NCBI GenBank assembly: GCA_030651695.1
Contig: JAUSCD010000012.1
Coordinates: 372,001-436,000 of the forward strand
Source: Pseudohongiella sp.
GTDB taxonomy: Bacteria; Pseudomonadota; Gammaproteobacteria; Pseudomonadales; Pseudohongiellaceae
DNA length: 64,000 nucleotides
Direction: 5' to 3'
Position 1 is the first letter of the stretch, and the number at the start of each line of letters is the position of its first letter. This document shows positions 4,327-34,738 of the stretch, in pieces. The notes beneath the pieces are model-generated. The model did not search any database, was not told the DNA's origin, and was given only the letters and a program-made list of their open reading frames with translations. A program made the position numbers and the translations under genes.

Positions 4327-7300
4327 ATGACTGATCAAGCCCAATTTACCCACAAGTTTGGTTTCCCGGCGAAGACAGGTCTGTATGACCCGGCTAATGA
4401 AAAGGACTCCTGCGGTGTAGGTTTTGTAGCGGATATCAAGGGCCGTGCCAGTCACCAGATCATGCTGGACGCTTACCATCTGAATTCGCGCATGGATCAC
4501 CGAGGCGGATGCGGCTTTGAAGCCAACACCGGCGACGGCGCAGGCATCCTGATGGCGCTGCCGCACTCATTTTTTGCCAATATCGCCCAAAAAACCCTGA
4601 ACAAAGCATTGCCAAGCGCAGGCAACTACGCCGTCGGCAATATTTTCCTGCCGCAGATCGCCAAAGAGCGTGAATTCTGCCGCGACACTATCAATCGTAT
4701 CATCGCCGAAGAAGGCCAGAGTTTACTCGGCTGGCGTGTGGTGCCGGTTGATGCTGCCGGTGCAGATGTAGGTCCTGCCGCGCGCATGGCGCAGCCGCAC
4801 ATTGAGCAGCTTTTTATTGCAGCTGCCGACGGGCTTGACCAGGATGCCTTTGAGCGTGCGCTATATATCATTCGCAAGCGCTTTACACACAGGCTGCGCA
4901 GCGACAGTTCGCTGAGTGAGGCCCAGATGCTTTACGCCTGCAGTCTGTCGACCAAAGTTATTGTATATAAAGGTATGCTGACCCCAGGCCAGCTGTTCCC
5001 GTTCTATAAAGATCTGACCAACCCGGCCTGCCAGACTCACATGGCCATGGTGCACTCGCGTTTCAGCACTAACACTTTCCCGTCATGGGATCGTGCCCAG
5101 CCAAACCGCTTTATGAGTCACAACGGTGAGATCAACACGCTGCGCGGCAACGTCAACCAGATGGTTGCGCGCGAAGGCATGCTGTCCAGCCCGCTGTTTG
5201 GCGACAAGCTCAAAGAGCTGTTCCCGATCATTGATGCGGACTGCTCAGACTCCGGCTCTTTTGACTCGGTGCTTGAGTTTATGCTGCTGTCCGGCCGTTC
5301 GCTGCAGGAATCCGTGATGATGATGATCCCGGAAGCGTGGCAGTCAGACGTCAATATGTCTGCTGACAAAAAAGCATTTTATGAGTTCCACTCCGCACTG
5401 ATGGAGCCGTGGGACGGCCCCGCGTCTATCGTGTTCTCGGACGGGAAATATATCGGCGCTGTGCTTGACCGTAACGGACTGCGACCCAGCCGTTACTACG
5501 TGACCCACGATGACAAGGTCATCATGGCGTCCGAAGTCGGCGTGGTGCATGTTGATCCGGCCAACGTCAAACTCAAAGGCCGCCTGCAGCCGGGTAAAAT
5601 GTTCCTGCTCGATTTTGAGCAAGGCCGCATGATTCCTGACGCTGAGCTCAAAGCTACATTTGCGGCCAAGCGTCCATACGGCGAATGGCTGGCCAATCAG
5701 AAGATTACGCTGGATCAACTGGCCGACGGCAACGAAGCACACTCGCTGGAGTCTGACAACGTACTGCCGCGTATGCAGGCCTTCGGTTACACCACCGAAA
5801 CCATGCAATTCATGCTGTTGCCTATGATCACTGAGGCCCGTGACCCGCTGGGCTCTATGGGTAATGACTCGGCGCTGGCCTGTCTGTCTGACAAGCCACG
5901 CATGATCTATGACTATTTCAAGCAGCTGTTTGCGCAGATTACCAACCCGGCTATCGACTCAATCCGCGAAGAAGTGGTGATGTCGCTGGAATGTTTTATT
6001 GGCCCGGAAGGCAACCTGCTGGAAACCAATGAGAAACAGGCCCATCGCCTGAGCCTGAAGCACCCGATTCTGTCCAACAAGCAGCTGCAGACCATCCGTA
6101 ACATGGATTTCAAAGGTCTGCGCAGCAAAGTGATCGATATCACTTACGATGCCAAAGCTGACAAAGGCTATGTTGCGGCGCTGGACCGCATTTGCGCAGA
6201 AGCCAGCCAGGCCATTAGCGAAGGTTACGCCTTTGTTATTCTGTCCGACCGTAAAATCGGCAAAGGTCAGATTGCAATCAGTGCGCTGGTTGCCTGTGGT
6301 GCAGTACACCATCATCTGATTCGCCAACATGAGCGCACCCGTATCGGTCTGATCGTGGAAACCGGCGAAGCCCGCGAAGTGCACCATCACTGCCTGCTCG
6401 CAGGTTTCGGTGCTGATGCCATCAACCCGTATCTTGCGTTTGAATCACTGTGGCAGGCACAGCTTGATGGCCTGCTGGGCAGCGATTACGAAACCGAAGA
6501 CAAGATTGTGTATGCCTACAAAAAAGCAGTTGGTAAAGGCATGCTCAAAGTCATGGCCAAAATGGGCATTTCAACGCTGCAGTCTTACAAAGGCGCGCAG
6601 ATTTTTGAAGCGGTTGGCCTGGCTGACGACATCATCAACCGATGTTTCGTGGGTACTGCCAGCCGGGTGCAAGGCGTTAACTTTGACACGCTGGTCGAAG
6701 AAACTGAGCGACGTCACCGCCTGGGCTTCCCATTATCCGAAGCCAATCGCATTCCGGTGCTGAACAACCCTGGCGACTTCCACTGGCGTAACGGTGGCGA
6801 AGGCCATATGTGGGATCCCAGTGCTATTTTCAATCTGCAGGTTGCTGCACGCAACAACAGTCCGGACGCCTACAAAATATTCGCAAAATACACCAATGAG
6901 CAGACAACACGCGCCTGCACATTGCGTGGATTGCTGGATTTCCGCAAAGGCATCAAAGCCATTGCGTTGGACGAAGTTGAGCCGGCCAAGGAGATCGTTA
7001 AACGTTTTGCAACCGGCGCTATGAGCTTTGGCTCGATTTCTCCGGAAGCTCACGAGAGCCTGGCTATTGCCATGAACCGTATGGGCGGCAAATCCAATAC
7101 CGGTGAAGGCGGCGAGGATCCGGCACGTTTCCAGCCAATGCCAAACGGCGACTCCAAGCGCTCGTCTATCAAGCAGGTTGCATCCGGCCGTTTTGGTGTA
7201 ACCATCTGGTACCTTAGCAATGCAGATGAGCTTCAGATCAAAATTTCACAAGGCGCCAAGCCTGGTGAAGGCGGCGAGTTGCCAGGCGGAAAAGTAGACG

Positions 7301-19781: not shown

Positions 19782-20957
19782 ATGTCCGCGCACGCTGCCC
19801 ACAAAACACGAAAGCTGATGGAACACATGCAGTGTTTATTGAGCCTGCCTACCATCAGTTCAAATTCGGCTGCGCTGGATATGAGCAATATGCCCGTCAT
19901 CAATTACCTGGCAGAGCAGTTCAGCGCGCTGGGTTTTGAGTGTGAAATCGTGCCGTGCGAAAGCACCAACGGAAACGTAAAAGCCAACCTGATTGCGTCG
20001 CTGGGAAAAGGTCCTGGCGGGCTGGTACTGGCCGGGCATACTGATACCGTTCCTATGGACGCTGAATTGTGGTCAGTTGATCCTTTGGCTGTAACTGAAA
20101 AGGACAACCGCCTCTACGGTCTTGGCAGCACCGACATGAAAGGCTTTTTTGCGCTGATTCTGGAGGCTGTACAGCCGTTTCTGGGTCAGCCGCTGCAACA
20201 ACCCTTGATTGTGCTGGCGACTGCCGATGAAGAAACCTCCATGTCCGGAGCCAGAAAAATCGCGGAAATCGGCAGACCCAAAGCGCGTTATGCCATCATT
20301 GGGGAACCCACCGGCATGAAACCCATTCGCGCACACAAAGGCGTGATGATGGAGACCATTCGCCTGCAAGGCCGCAGCGGCCACTCCTCCGACCCCAGTC
20401 TCGGCATCAACGCTATGGAAGCGATGCACGATGTGCTGAGTGAGTTGATGAAGTATCGCGCGGAATTACAACAGCGTTACCACAACCCCCTATTTGCCAT
20501 CGACAAACCCACCATGAACTTCGGTTGTATTCATGGCGGTGACAATCCCAACAGAATTTGTGGCCATTGCGAACTGGAATTTGATATCCGTATGTTGCCG
20601 GGCATGGAAGCTGAACTGCTGCGCACAGAAATCGACAGCCGATTGAGACCACTGGCTGAACGCTGGAAGGTCGGTTTTGAATTTACTCCACTGTTTCCCG
20701 GTGCACCCGCGTTTATGTGTCCGGCAGAAAGTGATTTGATCAGAACCGCCGAACGTCTGACTGGCCATGCCGTCGGCACGGTTGCCTTTGGCACCGAAGC
20801 GCCGTTCCTGCAGAATATGGGCATGGATACCATAGTGCTGGGGCCGGGCGATATTGATCAGGCGCATCAGCCAGACGAATATCTGGCGCTGGATCGTGTG
20901 CAGCCCTGTATAAATATGCTGCGCAGTTTTATTACCCATTATTGTGTCAAACCCTGA
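19782..20957 (+). CDS. argE: acetylornithine deacetylase
   Basis: A 391-residue M20-family zinc hydrolase that releases ornithine from N-acetylornithine. The metal ligands appear in order: AGHTDTVP (His, Asp), GLGSTDMKG (Asp bridging both metals), the ADEETSMSGA Glu pair, and the late TEAPFLQNMG segment. The length is typical of ArgE. It lies 30 bases after hemW and 26 bases before argA. The argE-argA pair defines a linear arginine pathway here. Confidence 0.93.
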   Translation: MSAHAAHKTRKLMEHMQCLLSLPTISSNSAALDMSNMPVINYLAEQFSALGFECEIVPCESTNGNVKANLIASLGKGPGGLVLAGHTDTVPMDAELWSVDPLAVTEKDNRLYGLGSTDMKGFFALILEAVQPFLGQPLQQPLIVLATADEETSMSGARKIAEIGRPKARYAIIGEPTGMKPIRAHKGVMMETIRLQGRSGHSSDPSLGINAMEAMHDVLSELMKYRAELQQRYHNPLFAIDKPTMNFGCIHGGDNPNRICGHCELEFDIRMLPGMEAELLRTEIDSRLRPLAERWKVGFEFTPLFPGAPAFMCPAESDLIRTAERLTGHAVGTVAFGTEAPFLQNMGMDTIVLGPGDIDQAHQPDEYLALDRVQPCINMLRSFITHYCVKP

Positions 20958-20983
20958 TTAAAGAATAAACGGAACAAAAACTC

Positions 20984-22309
20984 ATGGATAATCTTTCGCA
21001 ATACATTGACTGGTTCAGACATTCATCCAGTTATATCAATGCCCATCGCAAGAAGGTGTTTGTAGTATTGCTGACCGGGGAAACGATTGCGCACGAAAAT
21101 TTCAGCCATATTGTGCATGACATTACGCTGCTGCACAGCCTGGGGGTGAAACTGGTACTGGTACACGGCGCTCGCCCGCAAATTAATGCAGCACTGACGA
21201 ACGCCGGGCATGAATTGCGTTACCACAACAGTTTACGCATTACAGACAGCGATGATCTGGTACTGATCAAACAAACCGTCGGCGCAATGGCTATTGATAT
21301 CGAAGCCGAGTTTTCCATGGGCCTGGCCAATTCGCCGATGCACGGTGCTGACATCAAAGTCAGTCGCGGGAATTTTATTACTGCGCGTCCGCTGGGTATC
21401 ATCGACGGCGTGGATTACGCGCTTACAGGTGTAGTACGCAAAGTGAATGCTGAGGCCATCCTTCAGCATCTCGACAAAAACAGTATCGTGTTGTTGTCCA
21501 ATCTGGGTTATTCGCCAACAGGTGAAGTGTTTAATCTGTCTGCAGAAGATGTGGCTACCGAAGTCGCTATTTCCATGCAGGCGGAAAAACTTATCCTGTT
21601 TGTTCCGCAATGTGGTGTCAGTAACAAAAACGGCGAAATGTTGAGCACGCTCAGCCCGGTTGCAGCAGAGGCCTTGCTCAAAGACATTCCCGAGGACAAT
21701 ATCCAAAGTAAAAACGGTACGCTGGAGTCATTGGCTGCCGCAGTCAAAGCCAGCAACAAAACCGTTCATCGCTGCCACCTGATCAGCTTTGCTGACAATG
21801 GTGCTCTGATACAGGAAATGTTTACACGCGAAGGCAACGGCACGCTGGTATCCAAAGACAATTTTGAGTGGCTGCGTCAGGCCACCATTGATGATGTCGG
21901 CGGCATTCTGGAACTGATCGCGCCACTGGAAGCAGCGGGTATTCTGGTACATCGTTCACGCGAATTGCTGGAAGCCGAAATCGATTATTTCAAAGTGATC
22001 GAGATGGAAGGCATGATCATTGCCTGTGCTGCCATTTATCCACTGGATGAAGACAGCGGGGAGATTGCTTGTATCGCCATCCACAAGGACTATCAGGAAA
22101 GCGGGCGTGGTGATCATTTGATGCGCGCGCTGGAAAAACAGGCGCGCAAACAAGGCCTCACAAAGGTGATAGTGCTGACTACGCAAACTGCACACTGGTT
22201 TTTGGAGCGCGGTTTCGAGCCCATTGCGATCAGCGATCTGCCAACGAAGAAGCAGCAGATGTATAACTATCAGCGCAAATCAAAAGCGTTTATGAAAATA
22301 CTACGATAA
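20984..22309 (+). CDS. argA: N-acetylglutamate synthase
   Basis: A 441-residue protein with an N-terminal amino-acid-kinase-like domain (about 1-290; VLVHGARPQINAAL) that binds arginine for feedback control, and a C-terminal GNAT acetyltransferase domain (about 295-441; CIAIHKDYQESGRGDHLM). This two-domain plan is the classical proteobacterial ArgA, which makes N-acetylglutamate from acetyl-CoA. A response regulator gene follows only 26 bases downstream, so the arginine genes may be cotranscribed with the start of the nitric oxide signalling locus. Confidence 0.96.
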   Translation: MDNLSQYIDWFRHSSSYINAHRKKVFVVLLTGETIAHENFSHIVHDITLLHSLGVKLVLVHGARPQINAALTNAGHELRYHNSLRITDSDDLVLIKQTVGAMAIDIEAEFSMGLANSPMHGADIKVSRGNFITARPLGIIDGVDYALTGVVRKVNAEAILQHLDKNSIVLLSNLGYSPTGEVFNLSAEDVATEVAISMQAEKLILFVPQCGVSNKNGEMLSTLSPVAAEALLKDIPEDNIQSKNGTLESLAAAVKASNKTVHRCHLISFADNGALIQEMFTREGNGTLVSKDNFEWLRQATIDDVGGILELIAPLEAAGILVHRSRELLEAEIDYFKVIEMEGMIIACAAIYPLDEDSGEIACIAIHKDYQESGRGDHLMRALEKQARKQGLTKVIVLTTQTAHWFLERGFEPIAISDLPTKKQQMYNYQRKSKAFMKILR

Positions 22310-22335
22310 CACAAGCACCGGAGCAGCAACTTGCC

Positions 22336-23052
22336 ATGGATGTAAGAAAATCGATTGTTATTGTAGAAGATGACAAGTTGTATGGACGGGTACTGGACTA
22401 TCAGCTTAACAGCCTTGGATACCATTGCACGCTCATTAACTCCGGACATCGTCTGCTTGAAGAGTTGCCCAGCCTCAAATTACCGGACTTGTTTATTTTT
22501 GATTATTTTCTCGGTCTTGATGAACCCACAGGGCTTACTCTCTGTCGCCATGTGCAGAGTTTTTGTGATGTTCCAATCATGGTACTTACTGGCAACAATA
22601 AACTTGAAACCCTTGTCAGTTGCCTGAAAGCCGGCGCTGACCAATACATCCACAAACCCTGCGACATCAGAGAGCTGGATGCACGAATCATCGCCTCATT
22701 GCGTAAAGCGCCGGCTACAAATAGCGGCAAGATGCGTGAGCTCAAACTGCAACTGGATAAAGATATTGGATTGCAGTGGTCAGATCAGATGCTCAGGCAC
22801 AGCAACGGCACCAGCGTCAAACTCACCGACAAAGAAATCGGATTGCTTGAGCTTTTTGTGAACAGCCCGGAAAGGTACATAGAACGAGATGATGCGTTTC
22901 AGGTCCTTTATGGGTATGAGATGCAACCATCCAACCGGTCTATAGATGTGTTAGCAGGTAAATTGCGCAAAAAGCTCGCGATCCTGGATCCGGGTTATAT
23001 AGTAAGAACCATGCGTGGCAGGGGTTATGCACTGGTTAAAGCTCAAGAATAA
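22336..23052 (+). CDS. OmpR/PhoB-type response regulator
   Basis: A 238-residue protein. The receiver domain (about 5-125) has the acidic pair E11-D12-D13, the phospho-acceptor Asp56, the Thr of MVLTGNN and the Lys of HKP. The C-terminal winged helix (about 140-236) shows the usual LTDKEIGLLELF and RTMRGRGYALV segments. It should bind DNA when phosphorylated. It starts 26 bases after argA and 125 bases before an Hpt gene. In this setting it is the likely transcriptional output of the NO-sensing phosphorelay, but its partner kinase is inferred from position. Confidence 0.92.
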   Translation: MDVRKSIVIVEDDKLYGRVLDYQLNSLGYHCTLINSGHRLLEELPSLKLPDLFIFDYFLGLDEPTGLTLCRHVQSFCDVPIMVLTGNNKLETLVSCLKAGADQYIHKPCDIRELDARIIASLRKAPATNSGKMRELKLQLDKDIGLQWSDQMLRHSNGTSVKLTDKEIGLLELFVNSPERYIERDDAFQVLYGYEMQPSNRSIDVLAGKLRKKLAILDPGYIVRTMRGRGYALVKAQE

Positions 23053-23177
23053 GAAACCGGATCGCTGAGCCTGTCCGATTGTAATTATTTGTAAAAAGCC
23101 TCCTGCGTTTGCTGCCGGGATTTACTATGCTCGATTACTGCAAAAGTAATCACACTGATTCCGAAGATGTATAAATA

Positions 23178-23564
23178 ATGAATAGTACCTCGTCAATGCT
23201 GTTTGATAGTACTGCGCTACCGTCATCTTTGGGCACATCTGATGCGGACGTGTTGGTTCAATTCTATGAGATGTTCCTGCAAACCACGCTGGAATACTGG
23301 AGTGATCTGGACACGGGTAGTAACCCGCCTGATCTGACGCTGGTACGTCATACCGCTCATAAACTAAAGTCCTCTTCCGCCAGTATGGGAGCGCTGGCAC
23401 TGGCGCAGTCACTGAAAGAGTTGGAATTGGTGGCTGCTGAAGGCGATCTGCTGAAAGTCAGCCAGAAAACTGATCAGACCAAGCTTGTACTGGATGCTAC
23501 TGTAAAAATTGTACAGCAGAGGCTGGGCAGTTTGGAGCAGCAGTTAGCACGCACTCCCGGATAG
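23178..23564 (+). CDS. stand-alone Hpt phosphotransfer protein
   Basis: A 128-residue all-helical protein. The Hpt motif TAHKLKSSSASMGA places the phosphorylatable histidine at His61, and the downstream helix ALAQSLKELELVA completes the four-helix bundle. No kinase or receiver domain is attached. Both hybrid kinases of the locus end in a receiver domain without an Hpt domain of their own, so a separate Hpt protein is needed to pass phosphate to the OmpR-type or EAL-type regulators. This one is the obvious candidate. Confidence 0.9.
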   Translation: MNSTSSMLFDSTALPSSLGTSDADVLVQFYEMFLQTTLEYWSDLDTGSNPPDLTLVRHTAHKLKSSSASMGALALAQSLKELELVAAEGDLLKVSQKTDQTKLVLDATVKIVQQRLGSLEQQLARTPG

Positions 23565-23617
23565 CAGCAATACTTGCGGCTCATTAACAGTCACCTTTTT
23601 CATGGGAAGCCTCTGCG

Positions 23618-24175
23618 ATGTACGGACTGATTCATAACTCCCTGCGGGCGATGGTGAAAACGGAACTGGGTAATGACGCGTGGGCGGAGATTGTTGAGGC
23701 TGCCGGACTGTCTGAAAAAGACTTCCTGTCGCTCAAAAGTTACGACGATAGCGTCGTCCTGGCGCTGCTTGCTGCCACTCATAAAACAACCGGCCGCAGC
23801 GTCAACGACCTGCTTTACGATTTTGGACGCCACTTTATCAAACACACTGCCTTTGGGCATTATTCCGCTGTGATGAGCATGCATGGTTCCAGCGTGTGGG
23901 AGCTGTTAGATAGCCTCAACCACATGCATGACCGTATAGCGTCGTCATTCCCCGACTACGCACCCCCTTCGTTCCAGCTTCTCGGGTCCGGGGATGGTTC
24001 GTATGAGCTGACCTACTCCAGCACGCGACAGGGACTGACGAGTTTTGTCCGGGGACTTATCGCGGGCCTTGCTGACCACTTTTCAGTTGTAATCGACATC
24101 AACGTGCTGGAAGACGCGTGTTCTGATCAGGGGCAAATTACACGCTTCAGTTTAAAGGCCATTGAGCCCACATGA
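23618..24175 (+). CDS. hnoX: H-NOX haem nitric oxide sensor
   Basis: A 185-residue protein of typical bacterial H-NOX length. It begins with the family hallmark MYGLIHNSL. The probable haem ligand is His104 in LNHMHDRI, by comparison with Shewanella H-NOX, and the haem-propionate-binding YxSxR motif is present as Y133-S135-R137 (YSSTR). H-NOX proteins bind NO at a ferrous haem and then control a cognate kinase or cyclase. The stop overlaps the start of the hybrid kinase as ATGA, matching the known H-NOX/kinase pairing. The symbol hnoX is descriptive. Confidence 0.95.
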   Translation: MYGLIHNSLRAMVKTELGNDAWAEIVEAAGLSEKDFLSLKSYDDSVVLALLAATHKTTGRSVNDLLYDFGRHFIKHTAFGHYSAVMSMHGSSVWELLDSLNHMHDRIASSFPDYAPPSFQLLGSGDGSYELTYSSTRQGLTSFVRGLIAGLADHFSVVIDINVLEDACSDQGQITRFSLKAIEPT

Positions 24176-25779
24176 GCTTGTCCCCCTCACCTGCTCTGGA
24201 CAGTGTCTTTCCGCTGTACCTTGTTATGGATCAAGATGGCACAGTCAGATTCATCAGCGACCAATTGGCTGAGGAGATCGGCAATGCTTGCCTGGGGCAG
24301 AAATTTGCTGAATGGTTTATTGTAAAGAGACCCATCCTTGCCGCACATGTACCGGAATTCAATCTGTTACAGCGCCAGATGTTTCTTTTTATTACCAAGG
24401 ACGGCACATTTGCCATGCGCGGGCAGCTGTTAGTTCCAGCACCCGATGACAGCAATATCACTATGGTAATCACGCCATGGCTCACCTGGATGCAGGAGAA
24501 TCGCCCTGATCGGCTGGTATCCCCGAAAAGTTATCCGGTCGCTGATGCGCAACTGGAACTTCAGCTGTACCTGAGCACACAGCAAATGATGATGGACGAC
24601 ATGAATGGACTGTTGCTGGATCTGCAAAAGGCCACGAATCAGGCTATCGCCGCGAGTTCCGTCAAGTCACAGTTTGTAAACCATATCAGCCACGAATTAC
24701 GTACACCGCTGAATGGCATACTGAGCGCCGCTGAATTACTCAAATATGAATCAGCCAGCCCGCATGCCCGGCAGCTGATAGACGTGATCCGCAAATCCTC
24801 TGACGCACTGCTGGGGATTATCAATCAGATTCTTTATTACTCGCAGATCAGCTCTGGCAACCTGACACTGGCGATCAAACAGTTTGATCCGGCACAGCTA
24901 TGTCGTGATGTGTTGCAGATCATGTCGGTACTTGCCAGGCAAAATAACATCACGATCGAGGTCAAAATTCACAGACTTCTGCCCGCAAGCGTGTCTGCTG
25001 ACGCCCAGCGTATCCATAATGTGTTGTTGAACCTGGTCGGAAACGCCATCAAACACTGTGAAGGCGCGGATGTGGTTGTCAGCGTCAGCATACGGCCTGA
25101 AAGTCTGCCCGCGTCTCCCAGGTTATTGTTCGAAGTCCAGGATAGCGGGCCTGGTGTACCACCCGCTGACCGCGACCGTATATTTGAACCCTTCGCAACG
25201 ATAGCCGGCCGGAAATTACACGGAGAATCAGCATCGGGACTGGGTCTGGCAATCGTAAAATCTGAAGTCACTGTATTGGGTGGCGATATAGGCATCGGAG
25301 ACACTCCGTCCGGAAAGGGTAGTCTGTTCTGGTTCGATGTGCCTGTAGAGTTAATCCACCAGGCTCAGGTAACAATCCCTCCCGAGGATTCGGCAGTCAA
25401 ATTGTCGGGCAGGGTGTTGGTGGTGGATGACAACAACATCAATCTGAAACTCTGTAAACTGCAGATTGAAAGATTTGGACTACACGTTGATGCGGCCGAT
25501 TCAGCCGCTGATGCAATTGCACTCGCCACCGGTAATCAATATCAGCTGATATTGATGGATATCCAAATGCCGGGTATGGACGGCAAAGAAGCGGCCGCCG
25601 TGGTGCGTCAGTTGCCACAATATACACAGACACCGATTATTGCCTGGACAGCCAATGCCTGCGAGATCGAGGCCAAGTCTTATCAGTCATCCGGATTCAA
25701 CGATACCCTTGTCAAGCCTGTGACCACTGAATCACTGCGCTCAATGCTCGTCAAATGGATGCCTGGCGGGCAACGCTGA
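24172..25779 (+). CDS. hnoK: H-NOX-associated hybrid histidine kinase (HNOBA-HisKA-ATPase-REC)
   Basis: A 535-residue soluble protein. The first 150 or so residues resemble the H-NOX-associated (HNOBA) domain also found in soluble guanylate cyclases: FPLYLVMDQDGTVRF, FIVKRPI, and AMRGQLL. A short helical linker leads to HisKA with His174 (SHELRTPLNG), then the ATPase domain (SGLGLAIVKSE), then a receiver with Asp463 (LMDIQMPG). It has no transmembrane segment, consistent with control by the cytoplasmic H-NOX encoded directly upstream. In Shewanella and Vibrio, NO-bound H-NOX inhibits autophosphorylation of such kinases. The terminal receiver implies a phosphorelay through an Hpt protein. Confidence 0.9.
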   Translation: MSLSPSPALDSVFPLYLVMDQDGTVRFISDQLAEEIGNACLGQKFAEWFIVKRPILAAHVPEFNLLQRQMFLFITKDGTFAMRGQLLVPAPDDSNITMVITPWLTWMQENRPDRLVSPKSYPVADAQLELQLYLSTQQMMMDDMNGLLLDLQKATNQAIAASSVKSQFVNHISHELRTPLNGILSAAELLKYESASPHARQLIDVIRKSSDALLGIINQILYYSQISSGNLTLAIKQFDPAQLCRDVLQIMSVLARQNNITIEVKIHRLLPASVSADAQRIHNVLLNLVGNAIKHCEGADVVVSVSIRPESLPASPRLLFEVQDSGPGVPPADRDRIFEPFATIAGRKLHGESASGLGLAIVKSEVTVLGGDIGIGDTPSGKGSLFWFDVPVELIHQAQVTIPPEDSAVKLSGRVLVVDDNNINLKLCKLQIERFGLHVDAADSAADAIALATGNQYQLILMDIQMPGMDGKEAAAVVRQLPQYTQTPIIAWTANACEIEAKSYQSSGFNDTLVKPVTTESLRSMLVKWMPGGQR

Positions 25780-25897
25780 ATCAAGCAATCGCTGTTCAAA
25801 AATGGCTGGCTGGCAGAACCCCATACCGTCAATTGTAAAAACCTGTAAAGACTCCCTGCCTTGCTGGCAACTTCATTGCGATAATTTACACAACGCA

Positions 25898-25941
25898 GAG
25901 ACAAGGCGTGCGTTTCAGGTTGCCTGAAACTGCCGCGTCTC
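25898..25941. promoter_or_regulatory. two-tier inverted repeat upstream of the chemoreceptor gene
   Basis: GTTTCAGG (25912-25919) and CCTGAAAC (25923-25930) form a perfect 8-bp inverted repeat with a 3-base centre, flanked by GAGAC (25898-25902) and GTCTC (25937-25941). It sits in the 218-bp gap between the two halves of the NO locus. It could be an operator or an RNA hairpin. No T-tract follows. Confidence 0.45.
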
Positions 25942-25997
25942 GCCATAAAGAACCGATTTATACAGTGAACTCTTAGTCTTTTCAGGAAACATATCAA

Positions 25998-27659
25998 ATG
26001 CACATGCGTCTATCCAATCTGCTCCGCCTGAGTTTTGGATTTGTACTGGTACTGATGGCCACCATGACGATCATCGGCGTTATCAATGTTAACAATGCTG
26101 ACCGCATACTGGCTGAAGTCAATGAAGTGGACAGTCGCAAACAACGCTTTGCGATTAACTTCCGTGGCAGCGTACACGACAGGGCAATTTCAATCAGAGA
26201 TGCCGTGCTGGCAACAACGCAAGAGCAGCGCGCTCCACATCTTGCAGATATAAAAAGACTGGAACAATTTTACGCAGATTCCGCGCGCGAACTTGATGCC
26301 ATTTTTGATAACAACACAGTGGTAACGCAGACCGAGATAAGATTGTTGCAGGATATCAAGACAATTGAACAGCGGACTCAGTTGCAGGCCTACCAGGTTC
26401 TCGACTTGCTTGCACAAAGCCAGAATGATATGGCAATGCGTCTGCTCACTGACAGCACATCACAACTTTTTTCGGCATGGCTCGCCAGCATCAACACATT
26501 TATTGATCACCAGGAGTCCGACATACAATCCAAAGTCGACGAGGTCCGGGCAACAACCGGACGCTTCCAATGGCTTATGATCTCGGTGACGTTAATTGCA
26601 TTCATATTGGTGGGCGGTGTTGTGATGCTGTTGACCCGACACTTGAAAAAGACAATAGGTGGAGAGCCTGGTTACGCCGCCAGTATGATTCGTCAAATGG
26701 CAGCAGGGAATCTTGACCTCACCATTAAAACCAATTATCCCGACAGCATTATCGGCGCTACTGTTACCCTGCAGAAGGATCTGATCCGTATCATCTCTGA
26801 ACTGGAAACAACTGCTGAAGCGATCGCAATGGCATCCGGACAATTAACCAGCACTGCGCGTTCCAATCAGGAACAGTCTCATGACCAGCGTGCCCAGACT
26901 GACCAGGGTGCATCAGCTATAAGTGAGATGACGATGACAATCCACGAGGTCGCCAGGCATTCAGCCGACGCCGCTCATACAGCCAATACGGCTGCCGCTG
27001 AAAGCCGGATTGGTGAAAAAGAAGTAGCTGCCACCATCAAGAGTATCGGAGAACTGGCTGAGCATATCGACGAGTCATCGCGCGTTATTGGTCAGTTGTC
27101 CACTGATACACAACTTATTGGTACGGTCCTCGATGTCATAGAAAGTATTGCGGAACAAACCAATCTGCTGGCGCTCAATGCTGCAATTGAAGCGGCACGG
27201 GCAGGTGAACACGGTCGAGGCTTCGCTGTGGTAGCTGACGAGGTGAGAGCACTTGCCAGCCGCAGCCATAGCTCAACCAGGGACATTCACTCCTTGATCG
27301 AGAACATGCGATCAAGTGCCAACGGTGCTGTTGACGTCATCGCCAAGGGCCGTTTGAAAGCTGAAGACAGTGTGTTGCAGGCTAAACGTGCTGGCGAATC
27401 ACTTACCCGGATCAACGTGTCAGTTGATGGCATTGATGCCATGAACACCCACATCGCCAGCGCGACTGAGGAGCAATCTTCAGTTGCTAACGAAATCAGC
27501 AGAAACTTTAACAGCATCAAAGGGCTCGCCGAACTGGCGGAAATCTCCTCTGGCGGGATTACATCTGCCAGCGCTCAGCTCACGGAAACCGCCGAGCATT
27601 TGCGCAAGATCGTTGGCAAGTTTCAGCTCCCTGTTTTGCAATTTCGACAGATGCGTTGA
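25998..27659 (+). CDS. methyl-accepting chemotaxis protein
   Basis: A 553-residue chemoreceptor. The first transmembrane helix is at about residues 8-28, a periplasmic helical region of about 160 residues follows, and the second helix is at about 192-213. A HAMP-like segment comes next (KKTIGGEPGYAASMI), then the signalling domain with its hairpin tip near residues 386-420 (EQTNLLALNAAIEAARAGE). An AGGAAA lies about 10 bases before the ATG. No pentapeptide for CheR binding is seen at the C-terminus. No recognisable haem domain is present, so any response to NO would be indirect or through an unrecognised ligand domain. Confidence 0.93.
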   Translation: MHMRLSNLLRLSFGFVLVLMATMTIIGVINVNNADRILAEVNEVDSRKQRFAINFRGSVHDRAISIRDAVLATTQEQRAPHLADIKRLEQFYADSARELDAIFDNNTVVTQTEIRLLQDIKTIEQRTQLQAYQVLDLLAQSQNDMAMRLLTDSTSQLFSAWLASINTFIDHQESDIQSKVDEVRATTGRFQWLMISVTLIAFILVGGVVMLLTRHLKKTIGGEPGYAASMIRQMAAGNLDLTIKTNYPDSIIGATVTLQKDLIRIISELETTAEAIAMASGQLTSTARSNQEQSHDQRAQTDQGASAISEMTMTIHEVARHSADAAHTANTAAAESRIGEKEVAATIKSIGELAEHIDESSRVIGQLSTDTQLIGTVLDVIESIAEQTNLLALNAAIEAARAGEHGRGFAVVADEVRALASRSHSSTRDIHSLIENMRSSANGAVDVIAKGRLKAEDSVLQAKRAGESLTRINVSVDGIDAMNTHIASATEEQSSVANEISRNFNSIKGLAELAEISSGGITSASAQLTETAEHLRKIVGKFQLPVLQFRQMR

Positions 27660-27703
27660 TGCCCACTTAAGACTCTCCTGATAAAACGTTTTCCGGAATT
27701 TTT

Positions 27704-28957
27704 ATGCCGTCAGATACACACAGTAAAACTGTCACCCGTCAGAATAGTAGCCCTGACCTGCCGATTATATTGGTAATAGATGATGACATCATGTTTCAGC
27801 AGCAGGTCAGGTTCATACTGAGCGGACGCTACCTGATGCGGAGTGCACTTAAGGCTGACGCTGACGATCTGTTTACTGACATCAGCGCTGACACCATCAT
27901 ATTGGATCTGAACATGCCCGGTGTAGACGGCGTGTCATTTATCAAGACGATTGCGACACTCGATCCCAAACCAAAGCTTTTGATTGCCAGCGGACATGAT
28001 CTTGCAATACTGGAACTGGCTAAAACCACTGCCATTATGTATGGTCTGTTCCAGACTGAGATTCTGCAGAAACCGCTGAATAAAACAGGTTTATTACGTG
28101 CACTGGCACAATTGGATCGTATGCCTGCCGCACATGACTACGGCAACATAGCGCCGCGGGTTTTTTCTGACGATGACATTCATGCCGGGTTTGTCGCAAA
28201 TCAATTTACTGCGCACTACCAACCTCAGGTCTCCATAGTCTCGGCGGAGGTGACAGGGCTGGAAGCGCTGGCCAGATGGGATCATCCTGATTTCGGCAGA
28301 TTATCTCCGGCTTCGTTTATTGACCAGATCGAAAATTCGCAATACGCCGTGGCTTTTACATTGTTCATTGCTGAGAAAGCTGTTCAGGACACGTTGCAGT
28401 TGGAACTGGATACCGGCATCGCGTTAAAGGTCAGTGTTAATGTGCCGCCCCGGGTTTTGGAGTCGGAGACCCTGATAGAAGAACTCACACGTATTCTGGA
28501 GCACTATGATTTTCCTGCCCACAGATTCCAGTGTGAGATTACGGAAAGAGGGCTTGAGAATCCTGACCCTGTAATCCTGACGTCCATCGCACGTTTGCGA
28601 ATGAAAGGCGTACAGTTTTCTATCGACGACTTTGGTATCGGTCAATCCGGACTTTCAAAATTGAAGTCCCAGGCTTTTGATGAGGTAAAAATAGACCGTT
28701 CTTTTATAAATGACCTGTCCAGCTCCAAAGGGTCACGCTCAATTGTGGAAAGCATTATTCAATTGTCCAGACTGGTAGGTTTCCGCATTGTTGCGGAGGG
28801 TGTTGAAGACAAGCTTACGTTGAAACACAGCAGAATTCTTGGCATTCAAAATGTTCAGGGCTACTACTTCGCCAAACCCATGGCCGCCACAGCTCTTGCA
28901 CAGTGGATTACGGAATGGAACTCACAAGGCAATAAAAGTCGCGAGAAAAATCAATGA
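27704..28957 (+). CDS. response regulator with EAL cyclic-di-GMP phosphodiesterase domain
   Basis: A 417-residue protein. The receiver (about 20-140) has the acidic cluster DDD, phospho-acceptor Asp68 (LDLNMPG), the Ser of IASGH and the Lys of LQKPL. The EAL domain (about 165-405) keeps the catalytic set: EAL in GLEALARW, Asn in VSVNVP, Glu in CEITERG, the DDFGIG pair, Lys in EVKIDRSF and Glu in AEGVE, so it should hydrolyse cyclic-di-GMP. It resembles HnoB-type outputs of H-NOX circuits in Shewanella. The nosP-like gene overlaps its stop as ATGA. Confidence 0.93.
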   Translation: MPSDTHSKTVTRQNSSPDLPIILVIDDDIMFQQQVRFILSGRYLMRSALKADADDLFTDISADTIILDLNMPGVDGVSFIKTIATLDPKPKLLIASGHDLAILELAKTTAIMYGLFQTEILQKPLNKTGLLRALAQLDRMPAAHDYGNIAPRVFSDDDIHAGFVANQFTAHYQPQVSIVSAEVTGLEALARWDHPDFGRLSPASFIDQIENSQYAVAFTLFIAEKAVQDTLQLELDTGIALKVSVNVPPRVLESETLIEELTRILEHYDFPAHRFQCEITERGLENPDPVILTSIARLRMKGVQFSIDDFGIGQSGLSKLKSQAFDEVKIDRSFINDLSSSKGSRSIVESIIQLSRLVGFRIVAEGVEDKLTLKHSRILGIQNVQGYYFAKPMAATALAQWITEWNSQGNKSREKNQ

Positions 28958-30078
28958 AATCACCACACTTTACGTCTGACGGTTCGCTGGAAAGTCTTCA
29001 ACTTCTTTTGCAAAATATGCTGGACCGTGGCAATCCCGACGGCATTGTTATACTCGGTTGCGTTGAAAACGACATTGATGAGGATTGTGCAGACCAATTT
29101 TTCAGACGCATCGAGATACCTGTTGCCGGCGGCCTTTTTCCGGCACTGATTCATGATCAGCACGTCCGAGAGACAGGGTGGTTGGTATATGCCGTTCAGG
29201 GCCAATTATCAGTGAGTTACAGATCCAATATTTCTCAAAATACCAGTAATCCCGGCATCAACAGACAGGCTCTGGCAGTAGCGGTTGACACAGATGCCGA
29301 TATCAGGCTGGTGATAGTGGATGGGCACTCAACCAGTATTTCTTCCTATCTGACAGATGTGTACTCTACCAGTAACGTTACAAGCAAATTTATAGGTGGC
29401 GGTGCAGGCAGCCTGGCAAATGCAACTCAACGCTGCATCATCAGTAACAATGGCCTGGCTCGTGACGCCGCCATTGTAGTACAGGTAGCGAGTGAAGCCG
29501 GCGTAGGCGTTTCACATGGCTGGCGTGCTGCGTCGTCTGTACTTCGGGCAACGTCAACGAGTGGAAGTACCGTGCAAGAACTAAATTTTCGTCCGGCACT
29601 CGAAGTCTACAGCGAAATTATAGAATCAGAATTTAATACAACCATAGATCCCTCGGACCTCATAGCTACTGCCAGCATGTTCCCGCTGGGAATAAGACGA
29701 ATAGGCGGCTCCACGGTTGTTCGCGACCCTATAGCAAGCACCGACACCGGCGGCCTTATTTGTGTCGGCGAGTTTGATGAAAACTGTTTTGTGTATGTAT
29801 TAACGTCCAATATGACAGAGTTGCTGGAATCAACAGCCAGCGCAACCAGGCAGGCCGATGCGGATTTGATAGGACAGGCGGAGCATAAAGTTGTATTTGA
29901 CTGCATTTCCCGTTTCCTGCTGATGAAAGATCAGTTCGACGCTGAGCTCACTATGTTGAGTAGCGGTGGTGTGTCCGTTACCGGCGTACTTTCCATCGGG
30001 GAAATTGCGAGCAGTAGCGACGGCTTCCTCGAGTTTTATAACAAAACAACCGCCATTGTTGCATTTCCAGGGGACTGA
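28954..30078 (+). CDS. nosP: FIST-domain protein, NosP-like nitric oxide sensor
   Basis: A 374-residue soluble protein with FIST_N (about 50-190) followed by FIST_C (about 215-365). Family segments seen include FIGGGAGSLANATQRCI, GVSHGWRA and the C-terminal FLEFYNKTTAIVAF. NosP proteins are FIST-domain haem proteins that bind NO and control an adjacent histidine kinase in Pseudomonas, Vibrio and Shewanella. Here a large hybrid kinase starts four bases downstream, the same arrangement. Haem binding is inferred from the family; FIST proteins can also bind other small ligands such as amino acids. Confidence 0.82.
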   Translation: MKSPHFTSDGSLESLQLLLQNMLDRGNPDGIVILGCVENDIDEDCADQFFRRIEIPVAGGLFPALIHDQHVRETGWLVYAVQGQLSVSYRSNISQNTSNPGINRQALAVAVDTDADIRLVIVDGHSTSISSYLTDVYSTSNVTSKFIGGGAGSLANATQRCIISNNGLARDAAIVVQVASEAGVGVSHGWRAASSVLRATSTSGSTVQELNFRPALEVYSEIIESEFNTTIDPSDLIATASMFPLGIRRIGGSTVVRDPIASTDTGGLICVGEFDENCFVYVLTSNMTELLESTASATRQADADLIGQAEHKVVFDCISRFLLMKDQFDAELTMLSSGGVSVTGVLSIGEIASSSDGFLEFYNKTTAIVAFPGD

Positions 30079-30082
30079 CAAA

Positions 30083-32659
30083 TTGCTGGATATTGAGGTA
30101 GAGGTACTTTTTGAGATCTCGCTTAGCGTTGGGGGTACGCTTGATCTGGAAGCAGGCGCTCATGAGTTTTTAACAAAAAACGTTAAATTACTGAATCGGA
30201 TGGGCGGCGCGGTCGTGCAGGTCTCGGAGGATAACATCCATGTCCTGAGCAGTTTTCCTGAGTCGTTTGTGGACGACATCACCATACACAATTTTCTGAA
30301 TACGTCTGTACAGCAGTCACTGAGCATCCCAGAGCAAAATGCCAGCAGACGGCTGAGTCTCCATGGCAGAGACGTCTGCTGTGATTTTTTCACCATTCCG
30401 GATTTTGGTGTTCTGGTATTGTGTGGAAAACCACTTGATTTGAGCAAAAACTTTGAGGGGAACTTCAGACACATACTGAAAAAGTTTTCTGCTGCCTGTC
30501 ATGCCTGTATTCTGAGCGCGGACAACATGCAGAAGTCCAGAAGGCTTGAACTGGCCACCAAGTCGGCCAGGCTCGGTACCTGGGAACTGGATATCGCCAC
30601 AGGCAACATTCGTATTGACCATAGAATACGGGAACTGATCGGTCTGACAGAAGATCGCTTTGATTATTCGTTGCATGAATTTTTTGACTATGTACACGCT
30701 GATGACAAAGCCACCGTCATCGCACATGTCGGCAATTACATAGCGCAGGAAGTCGACGAGCCGACAGAATACTATTTCCGGATATATCGATCCGACGGAG
30801 AAGTTCGCAAAATTGCTTCCAATGCTATTTTGTTGTTCGACGGCGCCAAAGCCAGCAAACTGGTGGGTGTCAACTACGATGTAACGGAGGAAGAACTGGC
30901 GCTGACGCAATCCATGCATCGCTCGCGTCTGGAAAATCTGCTGGTCTCGATATCATTTGATCTGATAAAGAATCAGTACGATGCATTGGATGAGGTAATC
31001 ACTGCAGCATTGTGTAAAGCAGCTGAATTTGTTGGCGCAGATCGCGCCTACCGGTTTTCTTACGACCTGGAGAGTCAAACTACAAGCAATACCCACGAGT
31101 GGTGTGCAGAAGGGATCACGCCTGAGATTGCCAATTTGCAGAATATCCCTGTTGATGCCATTCGTCTATGGATAACGTCTCACCGCGCGGGTCTGCCATT
31201 TTTTGTAAAAAGCGTGCAAGAGTTGCCACACGGCCATGCCTTGCGTGACATACTTGAGCCACAGGGGATCAAGTCTCTTGTCACTATACCACTGATGCAG
31301 AATGACAACTGTGTAGGTTTTATAGGTTTTGATGCTGTCAACCACGAAAGACTATGGACCGACGTTGATCTGACGTTGTTGAAGTTGCTGGCAGATCTGC
31401 TTGTAAACGCTGACGTTAAACTTAACCATGAGTTACTTATCCGCTCACAGAACTTTGCGTTGACTGAGGCACGTGACCACGCTGAAAAATTGGCTGAGGA
31501 AGCCAATCAGGCGAGCCTGGCTAAATCCCACTTTGTTGCCCGTGTAAGCCACGAAATAAGAACACCACTGCACGCCATTCTCGGCCTCGCGGATCTTGTG
31601 TTGGCGGAATCACCCGCTCCTCAAATTCAACAACTGACCACAACCATCAGGGAGTCCGGTGGAGTTCTGCTTGCACTGATTAATGATGTGCTGGATTTCT
31701 CTAAAGCAGAATCCAATGAGGTGGTTCTGAATGTTGTAGAATTTAGTCTTTCTGAACTGCTTTCGTCTCTGGACTCGATGTTTCGTCCGATGGCCGATAA
31801 AAAGAATCTTCAGTTCAGAATTGTAACTACTCTTGACCAACACACGATCTATAGAGGAGACAAGCTCCGAATACGTCAGATCATGACTAACCTGTTGAGC
31901 AACGCGATCAAGTTTACGTCCGGTGGTTCAATCACAGTTTGTGTAAGCGCGCATTACGACACAGAACAGCGACTGCGGTTTGAAGTCAGTGACACCGGGA
32001 TGGGTATCCCTCAGCAGGATCTGCACAAATTGTTTCAGCCGTTCTTTCAATCATCAAATACCGACTCTCTGATGCTGAGCGGCACCGGACTGGGCTTGAC
32101 GATTTCAAACGCACTGGCTGAGCGCATGAACGGCCGCATCAACGTAGAAAGCGTACAAGGCAAGGGGTCGCGATTTACCTTTGAAGTCCCACTGTTGCAG
32201 CTGAGTTCAGCAAATGTATTGGAGCATCCCCATTCCGGCCGTATCGAAGGCGGGTCGCTGCAGGAAATACGTGTTCTAGTGGCAGAGGACAACCCGGTAA
32301 ACACACAGCTCATCAAGGCCTTCCTTAAAAGCGTCACCCGGAGTCTGGTATGTGTAAGCGACGGACAGCAGGCCTACGAAGCCATCCTGGACGAGGCTGA
32401 CGGTTTTGATGTAATTCTGATGGACTGCAATATGCCGGTCATGGACGGATTTGAAGCATCCAGAGCTATCCGCGCTGCTGAAAAGGGGCGACGGCGCACA
32501 CCCATCATCGCAGTCACCGCAGGGGCGATGGAAGGCGACAAAGCTGAGTGTCTTGCTGCCGGAATGGATGATGTGCTTGCTAAACCATTTGGAAAAAACG
32601 ACTTGCTGGAAATCCTGCAACTCTGGGTAGGTCAGCGCTCCAATACCACAAAGCTGTAA
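30083..32659 (+). CDS. nahK: hybrid histidine kinase beside NosP (PAS-GAF-HisKA-ATPase-REC)
   Basis: The likely start is the TTG at 30083, four bases after the nosP stop with AGGGG upstream, giving 858 residues; the frame stays open into nosP but that part is shadow. An N-terminal helical domain (1-150) is followed by PAS (about 155-272), GAF (about 300-442), HisKA with His490 (SHEIRTPLHA), an ATPase domain (GTGLGLTISN near residue 670) and a receiver with Asp781 (LMDCNMPVMD). No transmembrane helix is present. The position fits a NosP-associated kinase. Like the H-NOX kinase it lacks an Hpt domain. Its 3' end overlaps the convergent folA gene by 28 bases. Confidence 0.88.
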   Translation: MLDIEVEVLFEISLSVGGTLDLEAGAHEFLTKNVKLLNRMGGAVVQVSEDNIHVLSSFPESFVDDITIHNFLNTSVQQSLSIPEQNASRRLSLHGRDVCCDFFTIPDFGVLVLCGKPLDLSKNFEGNFRHILKKFSAACHACILSADNMQKSRRLELATKSARLGTWELDIATGNIRIDHRIRELIGLTEDRFDYSLHEFFDYVHADDKATVIAHVGNYIAQEVDEPTEYYFRIYRSDGEVRKIASNAILLFDGAKASKLVGVNYDVTEEELALTQSMHRSRLENLLVSISFDLIKNQYDALDEVITAALCKAAEFVGADRAYRFSYDLESQTTSNTHEWCAEGITPEIANLQNIPVDAIRLWITSHRAGLPFFVKSVQELPHGHALRDILEPQGIKSLVTIPLMQNDNCVGFIGFDAVNHERLWTDVDLTLLKLLADLLVNADVKLNHELLIRSQNFALTEARDHAEKLAEEANQASLAKSHFVARVSHEIRTPLHAILGLADLVLAESPAPQIQQLTTTIRESGGVLLALINDVLDFSKAESNEVVLNVVEFSLSELLSSLDSMFRPMADKKNLQFRIVTTLDQHTIYRGDKLRIRQIMTNLLSNAIKFTSGGSITVCVSAHYDTEQRLRFEVSDTGMGIPQQDLHKLFQPFFQSSNTDSLMLSGTGLGLTISNALAERMNGRINVESVQGKGSRFTFEVPLLQLSSANVLEHPHSGRIEGGSLQEIRVLVAEDNPVNTQLIKAFLKSVTRSLVCVSDGQQAYEAILDEADGFDVILMDCNMPVMDGFEASRAIRAAEKGRRRTPIIAVTAGAMEGDKAECLAAGMDDVLAKPFGKNDLLEILQLWVGQRSNTTKL

Positions 32660-33132
32660 TCATAAGGATTCGCGCCGGAGGCTGAAAAATCCTCCCGCCC
32701 CAGTTCCTCCCATTGCTCCAGATCGATTTCCGGAAAGTACGCATCACCTTGCACTTCAGCATGCACCTGCGTCATGTACAGACGATCTGCTCTGGGCAGC
32801 GCCAGCGCATAAATTTCTGCGCCTCCCATCACTACTGCTTCTTCAATACCATTGATGATACAAATATTTTCAGCATGACGAATGGCGGCATCCAATGAAT
32901 CCAGTACTTTCACACCTTCAATCTGCAAATCCGGCTGGCGACTGATCACAATATTAGTGCGTCCCGGCAACGGCCGGCCGATCGATTCATAGGTTTTGCG
33001 ACCCATAATAATGGGTTTACCCATGGTGACCTTCTTAAAGTATTTCAGGTCCTCAGGCAGATACCAGGGGAGCGCATTGTTGCGGCCAATCACGCGGTTG
33101 CGTGACATTGCCCAGATCAGCGCCAGCCTCAC
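32632..33132 (-). CDS. folA: dihydrofolate reductase
   Basis: A 166-residue enzyme that reduces dihydrofolate to tetrahydrofolate. It starts at GTG 33132, overlapping the thyA stop. Family residues are clear: the N-terminal [20 protein letters not shown] with the Met20-type loop, the active-site acid in [18 protein letters not shown] and [12 protein letters not shown] for NADPH. It is the last gene of the rppH-ptsP-lgt-thyA-folA run, and its end overlaps the convergent hybrid kinase gene by 28 bases. Confidence 0.97.
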
Positions 33133-33923
33133 ACTGCCACCGGCGCAGGGATATGGGGGTGTGCCTGATATCCCACAATTTCGAAATCTTCAAATTTGTA
33201 ATCAAAAATTGAATCCGGACGGCGTGTGATCCTGAGCTGAGGCAGCGCCATAAATTCACGACTGAGTTGTAAATGCGCCTGTTCAAGATGATTGCTGTAC
33301 AAATGCGTGTCCCCACCCGTCCAGATAAAATCACCCGGCTCCAGATCACACTGCTGTGCAACCATATGGGTCAAAAGTGCATACGACGCAATGTTAAACG
33401 GCACACCCAGAAAGGTATCTGCTGATCGTTGATAAAGCTGGCACGACAGCTTGCCGTTTGCCACATAAAACTGGAACAGAGAATGGCACGGCGGAAGTGC
33501 CATCTGATCCACATAAGCCGGATTGTAAGCAACTACCATCAGACGACGCGAATCAGGATTCTTCTTGATCTGCGCAATCACATTGCTGATCTGATCCACT
33601 GACTTGCCGTCCGGGGCAGGCCAGGAGCGCCACTGGAAACCATACACCGGGCCGAGATCACCGTTTTCATCGGCCCATTCATCCCAGATCGAGACGCCGT
33701 TTTCTTTCAGATAACGGATATTGGTGTCCCCGGTCAGAAACCACAACAGCTCATGAATAATGGAACGCAGATGCAGCTTTTTGGTGGTCAGCAGCGGAAA
33801 CCCTTTCTGCAGATCAAATCGCATCTGATGACCAAACACGGACAATGTGCCTGTGCCGGTACGGTCTGTTTTGACTGCACCTTCATCCAGAATGCGTTGC
33901 AGAAGTTCATGATACTGTTTCAT
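33129..33923 (-). CDS. thyA: thymidylate synthase
   Basis: A 264-residue enzyme, the same length as E. coli ThyA. It methylates dUMP using methylene-tetrahydrofolate, producing the dihydrofolate that FolA recycles. The catalytic cysteine lies in [11 protein letters not shown], and the nucleotide-binding [18 protein letters not shown] and GDTHLYSNH segments are present. It overlaps both lgt and folA by four bases, so the genes are translationally coupled. Confidence 0.98.
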
Positions 33924-34738
33924 ACCGACCTCTTCGTCTGAGCCTCAGGTGTCTTGCGATATGCGTAAACCATCAGTGCCGCGCCAGCAATAATCATCGG
34001 GACTGAAAGAATCTGCCCCATGGTGAGCCAGTCCAGCGCCACAAACCCCAGCCAGGAATCAGGCTCGCGGAAAAACTCTACAAAGAATCTTTGCACTCCG
34101 TAACCCAGGCCAAACAATCCGGCGACAGCAAAACGCGGACGCGGTTTCGACGAGAACCACCACACTACTGCAAACAACACAACGCCTTCAAGAAATGCCT
34201 GGTACAGCTGGGAAGCATGGCGCGGTAGCTGATCAACATGCGGGAACACCATGCCCCACGACACATCCGTAGGACGGCCCCAGAGTTCACCACCAATAAA
34301 ATTGCCGATGCGGCCAATGCCCAAACCCAGCGGCGCAAATGGAGCAATAAAATCCAGCACATCAAAATAGTTTCTCTTGATGCGGCGCGAATACAGATAA
34401 AACGCCAGCATTACACCGAGAAAACCGCCGTGGAAAGACATACCGCCTTCCCATACCCTCAGGAGCCACACCGGATCAGAAATAAAGCGGTCAAAATTGT
34501 AGAAAACCACCGAACCGACGCGCCCGCCAAGCACAGCACCAAGCGCACCGTAAAAAACCAGATCCGACAATTGGTCATCGGTCCAGCCTTTGGATGCCGT
34601 AGCAATGCCTGTCCGTGTACGATAACGCGCAAGCATCCAACAGGCGCTGAACGCCACAATGTACATGATGCCGTACCAATGTACGGTCAGGGGCCCCAGC
34701 GAGAAAGCAACGGGATCAATATCGGGGTAGGTCAGCAT
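33920..34738 (-). CDS. lgt: phosphatidylglycerol:prolipoprotein diacylglyceryl transferase
   Basis: A 272-residue inner-membrane enzyme with about seven helices. It attaches diacylglycerol to the lipobox cysteine of prolipoproteins. The Lgt signature is [14 protein letters not shown] near residue 140, and HGGFLGV lies before it. The gene lies 9 bases downstream of ptsP and overlaps thyA, the common gammaproteobacterial order. The DUF1499 lipoprotein encoded at 63.3 kb is one probable substrate. Confidence 0.97.

Follow-up and report, generated by a model that had tools for sequence, protein, structure and literature searches.

The question raised here is whether two soluble sensors encoded at one locus, each with a hybrid kinase of its own, report to a single phosphate carrier. 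The locus lies in a Pseudohongiella sp. (NCBI GenBank assembly GCA_030651695.1, contig JAUSCD010000012.1), and we analyzed it within a stretch of 64,000 nucleotides, i.e., the window, which covers positions 372,001 to 436,000 of the forward strand. Eight plus-strand genes encode an OmpR-type response regulator, a free-standing Hpt protein, an H-NOX protein, an H-NOX-coupled hybrid kinase (HnoK), a chemoreceptor (MCP), a REC-EAL protein (EAL2), a FIST protein and a second hybrid kinase (HK2). A preliminary description made from the sequence had named these genes, and Pfam bears out their positions and domains, save for an HNOBA label on the first kinase and for the start of HK2. In searches of the same genome, HNOB and FIST each matched once, in both cases inside the locus. 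We consider this to be, probably, a composite phosphorelay locus, in which two sensor-kinase pairs (H-NOX with HnoK, and FIST with HK2) converge on one Hpt protein and drive the OmpR-type regulator and the REC-EAL protein. This reading builds on which genes are present and how they overlap, on key residues, on conservation across four genomes, and on the pairing, in genomes, of FIST with a GAF-fold domain; this pairing is what our analysis adds, the H-NOX/FIST type of linkage being already known.

The pairing concerns the first ~150 residues of HK2, a domain that Pfam misses: residues 1-165 gave no Pfam match at E<=1, and of ten such N-terminal segments, eight had no match and two had matches at chance level (E 0.12 and 0.22). 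The AlphaFold2 model of the domain (predicted local distance difference test, pLDDT, 90.5) has GAF-containing proteins as its top Foldseek matches (best E 8.8e-6, template modeling score, TM, ~0.5-0.6). A profile of the region retrieved related N-termini beside other FIST proteins of the same subfamily, several of these initial matches being weak (L128, E 0.012) and one locus (L129) not being matched. In a leave-one-locus-out test, which reused the columns of our alignment (A4) without realigning and with rows picked after the initial search, the domain was found in all 24 subfamily loci, and in 23 of these it is in the gene directly after FIST, the exception being L113, where the domain-bearing kinase is upstream of FIST. 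Rows of this alignment from outside the genus share 17-28% identity with the domain in the window, and the output modules behind the domain vary, comprising hybrid kinases, one plain kinase, and PAS-GGDEF-EAL.

Plasmids provided a clean test. A tblastn search returned eight plasmid FIST records, five of which (four from haloarchaea and one from Salinibacter ruber) belong to the subfamily as judged by their matches to the FIST profile, which are long and have E 1e-86 or better vs 1e-46 or worse for the remaining three. The domain is present in the next gene for 5 of 5 subfamily FISTs, and for 0 of the 3 others (two Microvirga and Halomontanus). It was likewise found in 0 of the 290 frames at 33 FIST loci of other kinds (~1.5-kb flanks; the FIST frame could be placed in 23, all with a same-strand frame near its end, perhaps including chance frames, and the scan with the NosP model covered L056, L067, and L026 only), at 0 of 58 H-NOX loci (608 frames, including overlapping stretches of identical places), and in none of the 91 frames from G304 and G362, two genomes of family f29 discussed below. 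Of the 15 genomes of the genus, exactly the five with a subfamily FIST contain the domain, and among 56 relatives, the window included, it occurs in six genomes, i.e., these five (twice in G028) and G154.

As a genomic correlation only, then, this FIST subfamily is paired with an unnamed GAF-fold domain across bacteria and archaea. We see an even chance that the broader statement holds, namely that a non-NosP FIST, mostly carrying a GGxFP motif, and a previously unrecognized GAF-fold receiver domain make up a two-gene sensory module of general use, occurring in haloarchaea and several bacterial phyla and plugging into kinases or GGDEF-EAL enzymes, and that in Pseudohongiella this module has been combined with an H-NOX phosphorelay, one Hpt serving two soluble sensors. 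Neither the domain nor the locus was found described in our literature search, which missed some relevant papers. The available parts of PMC12570481, PMC6769237, and PMC8846402 leave open how a soluble FIST protein hands its signal to kinases with no recognized sensory domain (papers cited by PMC number are represented throughout by the parts available), and a domain that goes with one FIST subfamily at the loci covered here, ahead of differing outputs, is a specific candidate docking site. The Pseudohongiella locus is a compact natural case in which a single phosphate carrier may receive the signals of two soluble sensors. As a separate observation, the haloarchaeal plasmid loci L149-L151 and L153 carry the subfamily FIST and the partner domain together, and the pair may have been transferred between archaea and bacteria.

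The FIST protein itself has both FIST and FIST_C domains by Pfam and the FIST fold by model (pLDDT 89.3), the model matching the FIST domain of FBXO22 (8ua3_C, E 4.1e-9, TM 0.50); a PDB search with its sequence gave nothing convincing (best E 0.14). The preliminary description had called it NosP-like, a label that we reject as regards NosP equivalogs, since the protein reaches 34.1 bits on the curated model NF041558 against a cut-off of 450 bits. Among eight other FIST proteins, L056 (557 bits) and L026 (486 bits) pass this model, and L067 (62.1 bits), L132, L133, L038, L034, and L111 fall below its cut-off. HK2 is similarly distant from the NahK model NF041831 (124.6 vs 1500 bits). The GGxFP motif is carried by most, not all, members of the subfamily, including 4 of the 5 plasmid members, and is absent in Salinibacter. 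Alignment of the subfamily shows His188 and Cys317 in 29 of 29 members and Cys161 and Cys270 in 27 of 29. The latter two are missing from both aligned NosP rows, Cys317 is general across FISTs, His188 and Cys317 also occur in the three plasmid FISTs outside the subfamily, and position 188 is Ser in the FISTs of G304 and G362. These four residues could form a redox, metal, or heme site, and heme, metal, or thiol chemistry would each be in keeping with such a set. His67, in the GGxFPxxIH stretch, is unlikely as a heme ligand, as it is replaced by Tyr, Phe, Asp, or Val in 4 of 5 archaeal and Salinibacter members. The near-invariant three Cys and one His are encoded within window positions 29434-29904. 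In L130 (Tepidimonas thermarum, 5921-7049), the FIST gene is split over two overlapping frames, through either a frameshift or a sequencing error.

The H-NOX protein is well above the Pfam cut-off for HNOB (145.8 vs 25.5 bits), and its residues 1-167 align with the Nostoc H-NOX. In an alignment of 11 rows, His104, Pro117, Tyr133, and Arg137 are found in all 11, and Ser135 in 10, with Thr in the remaining one; we take these to be the proximal His, the conserved Pro, and the YxSxR heme motif. Judged from its sequence, the protein looks intact, with its heme-site residues all there. Searches of plasmids gave only distant H-NOX matches (24-28% identity). HnoK is assigned as the H-NOX-coupled kinase by its adjoining, overlapping gene. 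Its HNOBA-type label does not hold, as the HNOBA match (19.3 bits) is below the Pfam cut-off of 23.4 bits, and HNOBA is also absent from the Pfam matches of the HnoK orthologue of G031 at E<=0.001.

Table 1. Coordinates of the genes and domains of the locus (window positions) and of two comparable loci (positions in L132 and L133)
Feature	Position	Strand	Basis and remarks
OmpR-type response regulator, REC (Asp56) and Trans_reg_C	22336..23052	+	Pfam; residue check; 26 bp after argA
Free-standing Hpt protein, candidate phosphoacceptor His61	23178..23564	+	Pfam, 43.7 bits
H-NOX; His104, Pro117, Tyr133-Ser135-Arg137; single Cys	23618..24175	+	Pfam HNOB, 145.8 bits; alignments
HnoK, H-NOX-coupled hybrid kinase, HisKA-HATPase-REC; His174, REC Asp463	24172..25779	+	Pfam; 4-bp overlap with H-NOX
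Chemoreceptor of 4HB type, 4HB_MCP and MCPsignal	25998..27659	+	Pfam; missing from the G031 and G032 loci
REC-EAL (EAL2), REC Asp68; EAL, DDFG, KID, and EGVE motifs	27704..28957	+	Pfam; residues
FIST protein, FIST and FIST_C, non-NosP subfamily; His188, Cys161, Cys270, Cys317	28954..30078	+	4-bp overlap with EAL2
HK2, hybrid kinase, PAS-GAF-HisKA-HATPase-REC; His490, REC Asp781	30083..32659	+	likely TTG start
GAF-fold FIST-partner domain, N-terminus of HK2	30083..30535	+	no Pfam match; profile and structure model
Divergent H-NOX/kinase and regulator/FIST/kinase operons	L132 6110-11850 (G304); L133 7041-12774 (G362)

Besides the two 4-bp overlaps given in Table 1, a spacing of 4 bp separates FIST from HK2, and a gap of 218 bp separates HnoK from the chemoreceptor gene. 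A start of HK2 at 29966 was discarded; the TTG at 30083, which gives a protein of 858 aa, is the likely start because the FIST frame runs to its stop at 30078 and because a TTG likewise lies 4 bp past the FIST stop in three relatives (L034, L035, and L036). A promoter and terminator scan gave counts near those of shuffled sequences (9 vs a mean of 12.6, and 11 vs a mean of 8.8), a search of window positions 20000-34000 with Rfam gave zero matches above the gathering score, and no tRNA was found in the window. The 3′ end of HK2 overlaps a convergent frame by 28 bp (32632-32659), which from its sequence we take to encode a dihydrofolate-reductase-like protein.

The arrangement recurs within the genus. 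HNOB is present in 22 and a FIST match in 9 of 137 genomes of the family, one of these nine, a weak match in G101, not being counted as a FIST gene since it overlaps an argA-like frame. In 4 of the 15 genomes of the genus (that of the window, G028, G031, and G032), H-NOX and FIST have 3-5 kb between them, and because three other genomes hold the same kind of cluster we do not regard the locus as a chance arrangement. Gene order in G028 is OmpR, Hpt, EAL1, HK1, H-NOX, HnoK, MCP, EAL2, FIST, HK2, its contig ending inside OmpR and HK2; HK1 and MCP are missing from G031 and from G032, whose contig ends in HK2, and the window locus lacks EAL1 and HK1. Identity is 50-56% between EAL1 and EAL2 and 49-54% between HK1 and HK2, so the REC-EAL and kinase genes look like a duplicated block. 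Elsewhere in the genus, another H-NOX is present in G025, which has no FIST, and the FIST of G020, which reaches 31.4 bits on the profile, is not one of the subfamily. The contigs of L110, L109, L108, and L124 are the same as those of L034, L035, L036, and L038. A further genome, G106, from another genus, has a cluster (L042 6641-12523; G106:C52) of OmpR-like, Hpt-like, REC-EAL, H-NOX, hybrid kinase, and second OmpR-like genes with no FIST, the REC-EAL and kinase being identified by Pfam and the rest by BLAST alone; its hybrid kinase has an Hpt domain of its own. An ancestor of the locus that had no FIST may have looked like this cluster, and the H-NOX half is maybe the older core, given that G106 has these genes without FIST, directions of gain, loss, and transfer being drawn here from comparison without a tree. 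The EAL1 of G031 (L035 11344-12570) lacks the DDFG motif, unlike other EAL copies, and may be inactive.

In the mechanism, which we infer as to the binding of heme and NO (nitric oxide), the ligand of FIST, its docking, the way in which control runs, the sharing of Hpt, and the targets, H-NOX would bind NO via a heme at His104 and control HnoK, and the non-NosP FIST would bind a ligand, possibly NO or heme, and control HK2, on whose N-terminal GAF-fold domain it would dock. Neither HnoK nor HK2 contains an Hpt domain by Pfam, so each should need an external one, and a separate Hpt protein with a candidate His is encoded in the locus. This Hpt would be the likely common phosphate carrier for both kinases, passing phosphate to the REC-EAL phosphodiesterase, which would alter the breakdown of cyclic di-GMP (c-di-GMP), and also to the OmpR-type regulator. 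Two pairs feeding one Hpt is the most economical reading. EAL2 keeps all the motifs listed in Table 1, and presumed phospho-acceptor residues are present in its REC domain as in the other phosphorelay proteins. NnrS is linked to NO, and a match to it in the genome counts in favor of this composite phosphorelay. In the characterized cases, according to the available parts of PMC8738867, PMC12570481, and PMC6769237, H-NOX inhibits its kinase when NO is bound, and NosP with NO inhibits its kinase in some cases and stimulates it in others, so that the sign of control cannot be called here. The preliminary description had taken the chemoreceptor for a taxis output; an MCP is an input component, and as its gene is missing from 2 of the 4 loci, it is an optional one and no core output.

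Several observations weigh against the composite phosphorelay. A second short Hpt frame is present elsewhere in the genome (of five Hpt matches genome-wide, only two are in open frames of <150 aa, that of the locus among them, a scarcity that in turn counts in favor of the reading). The distance of the FIST protein from NosP makes NO no more than a possible input of its arm. G029 has its subfamily FIST ~36 kb from an H-NOX, which is only 23% identical to that of the window. The 24 subfamily loci are not independent, four being from one genus and others forming near-relative pairs, and G154 has an orphan, a domain-bearing hybrid kinase (L147 7593-9206) beside a hydrolase gene, with no FIST gene in the 19 kb surrounding it and none among the FIST matches of the order. 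H-NOX and FIST are also not drawn together across the order: among 390 genomes, FIST is found in 99, HNOB in 102, and both in 25, vs 25.9 expected, and we reject an enriched co-occurrence as a general rule. The search for neighboring FIST and HNOB genes proposed in the preliminary description thus yields linkage within 20 kb, on distances read by eye, in 3 of the 25 genomes having both (that of the window, G304, and G362), and no overall enrichment. Among the FIST matches listed for the phylum, only the pair in the window is <20 kb apart, that of G574 being just over 20 kb.

The preliminary description had proposed a dual-input NO circuit, and this is only half grounded: an H-NOX with its heme-site residues, two hybrid kinases, one Hpt, two regulators, and a conserved locus all stand, but by the curated model the FIST falls outside NosP. 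Should the FIST nevertheless be a divergent NosP that senses NO, the locus would be a true dual NO circuit, which we think possible though rather doubtful. The FISTs of G304 and G362, at only 38.8 and 28.7 bits to NosP, sit in a nosRPK-like operon beside H-NOX, and the FIST protein of nosRPK controls its kinase in an NO-dependent manner (PMC12570481, in the parts available). Residue 188 is His in 11 of 12 high-scoring FISTs outside the subfamily as well as throughout it, and Cys317 is invariant in all 12, both of which count for this reading, but position 188 is Gln in one of the two model-positive NosP proteins and Ser in both G304 and G362, the FIST of the window reaches only 34 of 450 bits, and the partner domain was not found at the 33 other FIST loci.

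The FIST arm may instead sense an amino acid, redox state, or a metal, with the locus integrating NO and metabolic state, a view that we hold just as tentatively. Amino acids are reportedly a ligand that Borziak and Zhulin had in mind for FIST in 2007. An amino-acid cue would fit the neighborhood, as argA immediately precedes the locus in all 3 cases in which the upstream side is visible and the subfamily FIST of G029 is ~6 kb from argA, on the opposite strand; argA adjacency is, however, perhaps a neutral insertion spot. Absence of Cys161 and Cys270 from the two NosP rows also counts for a ligand other than NO, and FIST has been proposed as a small-ligand sensory domain (Borziak and Zhulin 2007, as cited in PMC11185555), although the FIST domain of FBXO22 has no obvious ligand pocket in the parts available of the same paper. 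That the two systems are independent neighbors, with Hpt serving HnoK only and HK2 using another carrier, seems unlikely to us. The FIST-free cluster of G106, the 218-bp gap, and the lack of H-NOX in the flanks (up to 10 kb, some shorter) of 21 of 24 subfamily FIST loci would be expected of such neighbors; they are outweighed in our judgment by the presence of both halves together in four genomes of differing content, and by the lack of an Hpt domain in HK2, both of which favor the composite phosphorelay.

Linkage of H-NOX to FIST is not unprecedented, although the preliminary description knew only examples with the two sensors at separate loci. In a 2022 review, FIST is one of the families located no more than five genes from group-1 hnox (PMC8738867, section 10 and Fig. 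6 legend), with neither gene order nor mechanism given in the text available, and the H-NOX of the window may belong to group 1 or to another group. G304 and G362 are independent cases, in which the H-NOX/kinase genes and a regulator/FIST/kinase operon diverge from each other at a distance of 1.6-1.7 kb; the regulator of G304 is REC-HD, the operon order is that of nosRPK, and the FIST belongs to a subfamily other than that of the window. As in NosP/NahK/NarR, NosP/VpsS, and nosRPK, the FIST of the window is encoded beside a soluble kinase (PMC11237717, PMC6769237, PMC4398556, and PMC12570481, in the parts available), and NosP/NahK/NarR and nosRPK, not NosP/VpsS, include a c-di-GMP-type response regulator. 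Unlike in those systems, the FIST of the window is far below the NosP model and HK2 begins with a GAF-fold domain that was not found at 33 other FIST loci, a comparison that excludes the kinases of NosP/NahK/NarR, NosP/VpsS, and nosRPK themselves. The other half of the locus resembles the H-NOX/HnoK/HnoB (HnoC, HnoD) network of Shewanella oneidensis and Vibrio cholerae, where H-NOX is beside its kinase and the outputs are REC-EAL and a transcription factor (PMC8738867 and PMC8846402, in the parts available). The H-NOX of the window has one Cys, whereas the group of S. oneidensis and V. cholerae conserves the three Cys that are zinc ligands (PMC7108781, in the part available), and unlike that network, the locus in the window adds an Hpt and a FIST with its own hybrid kinase.

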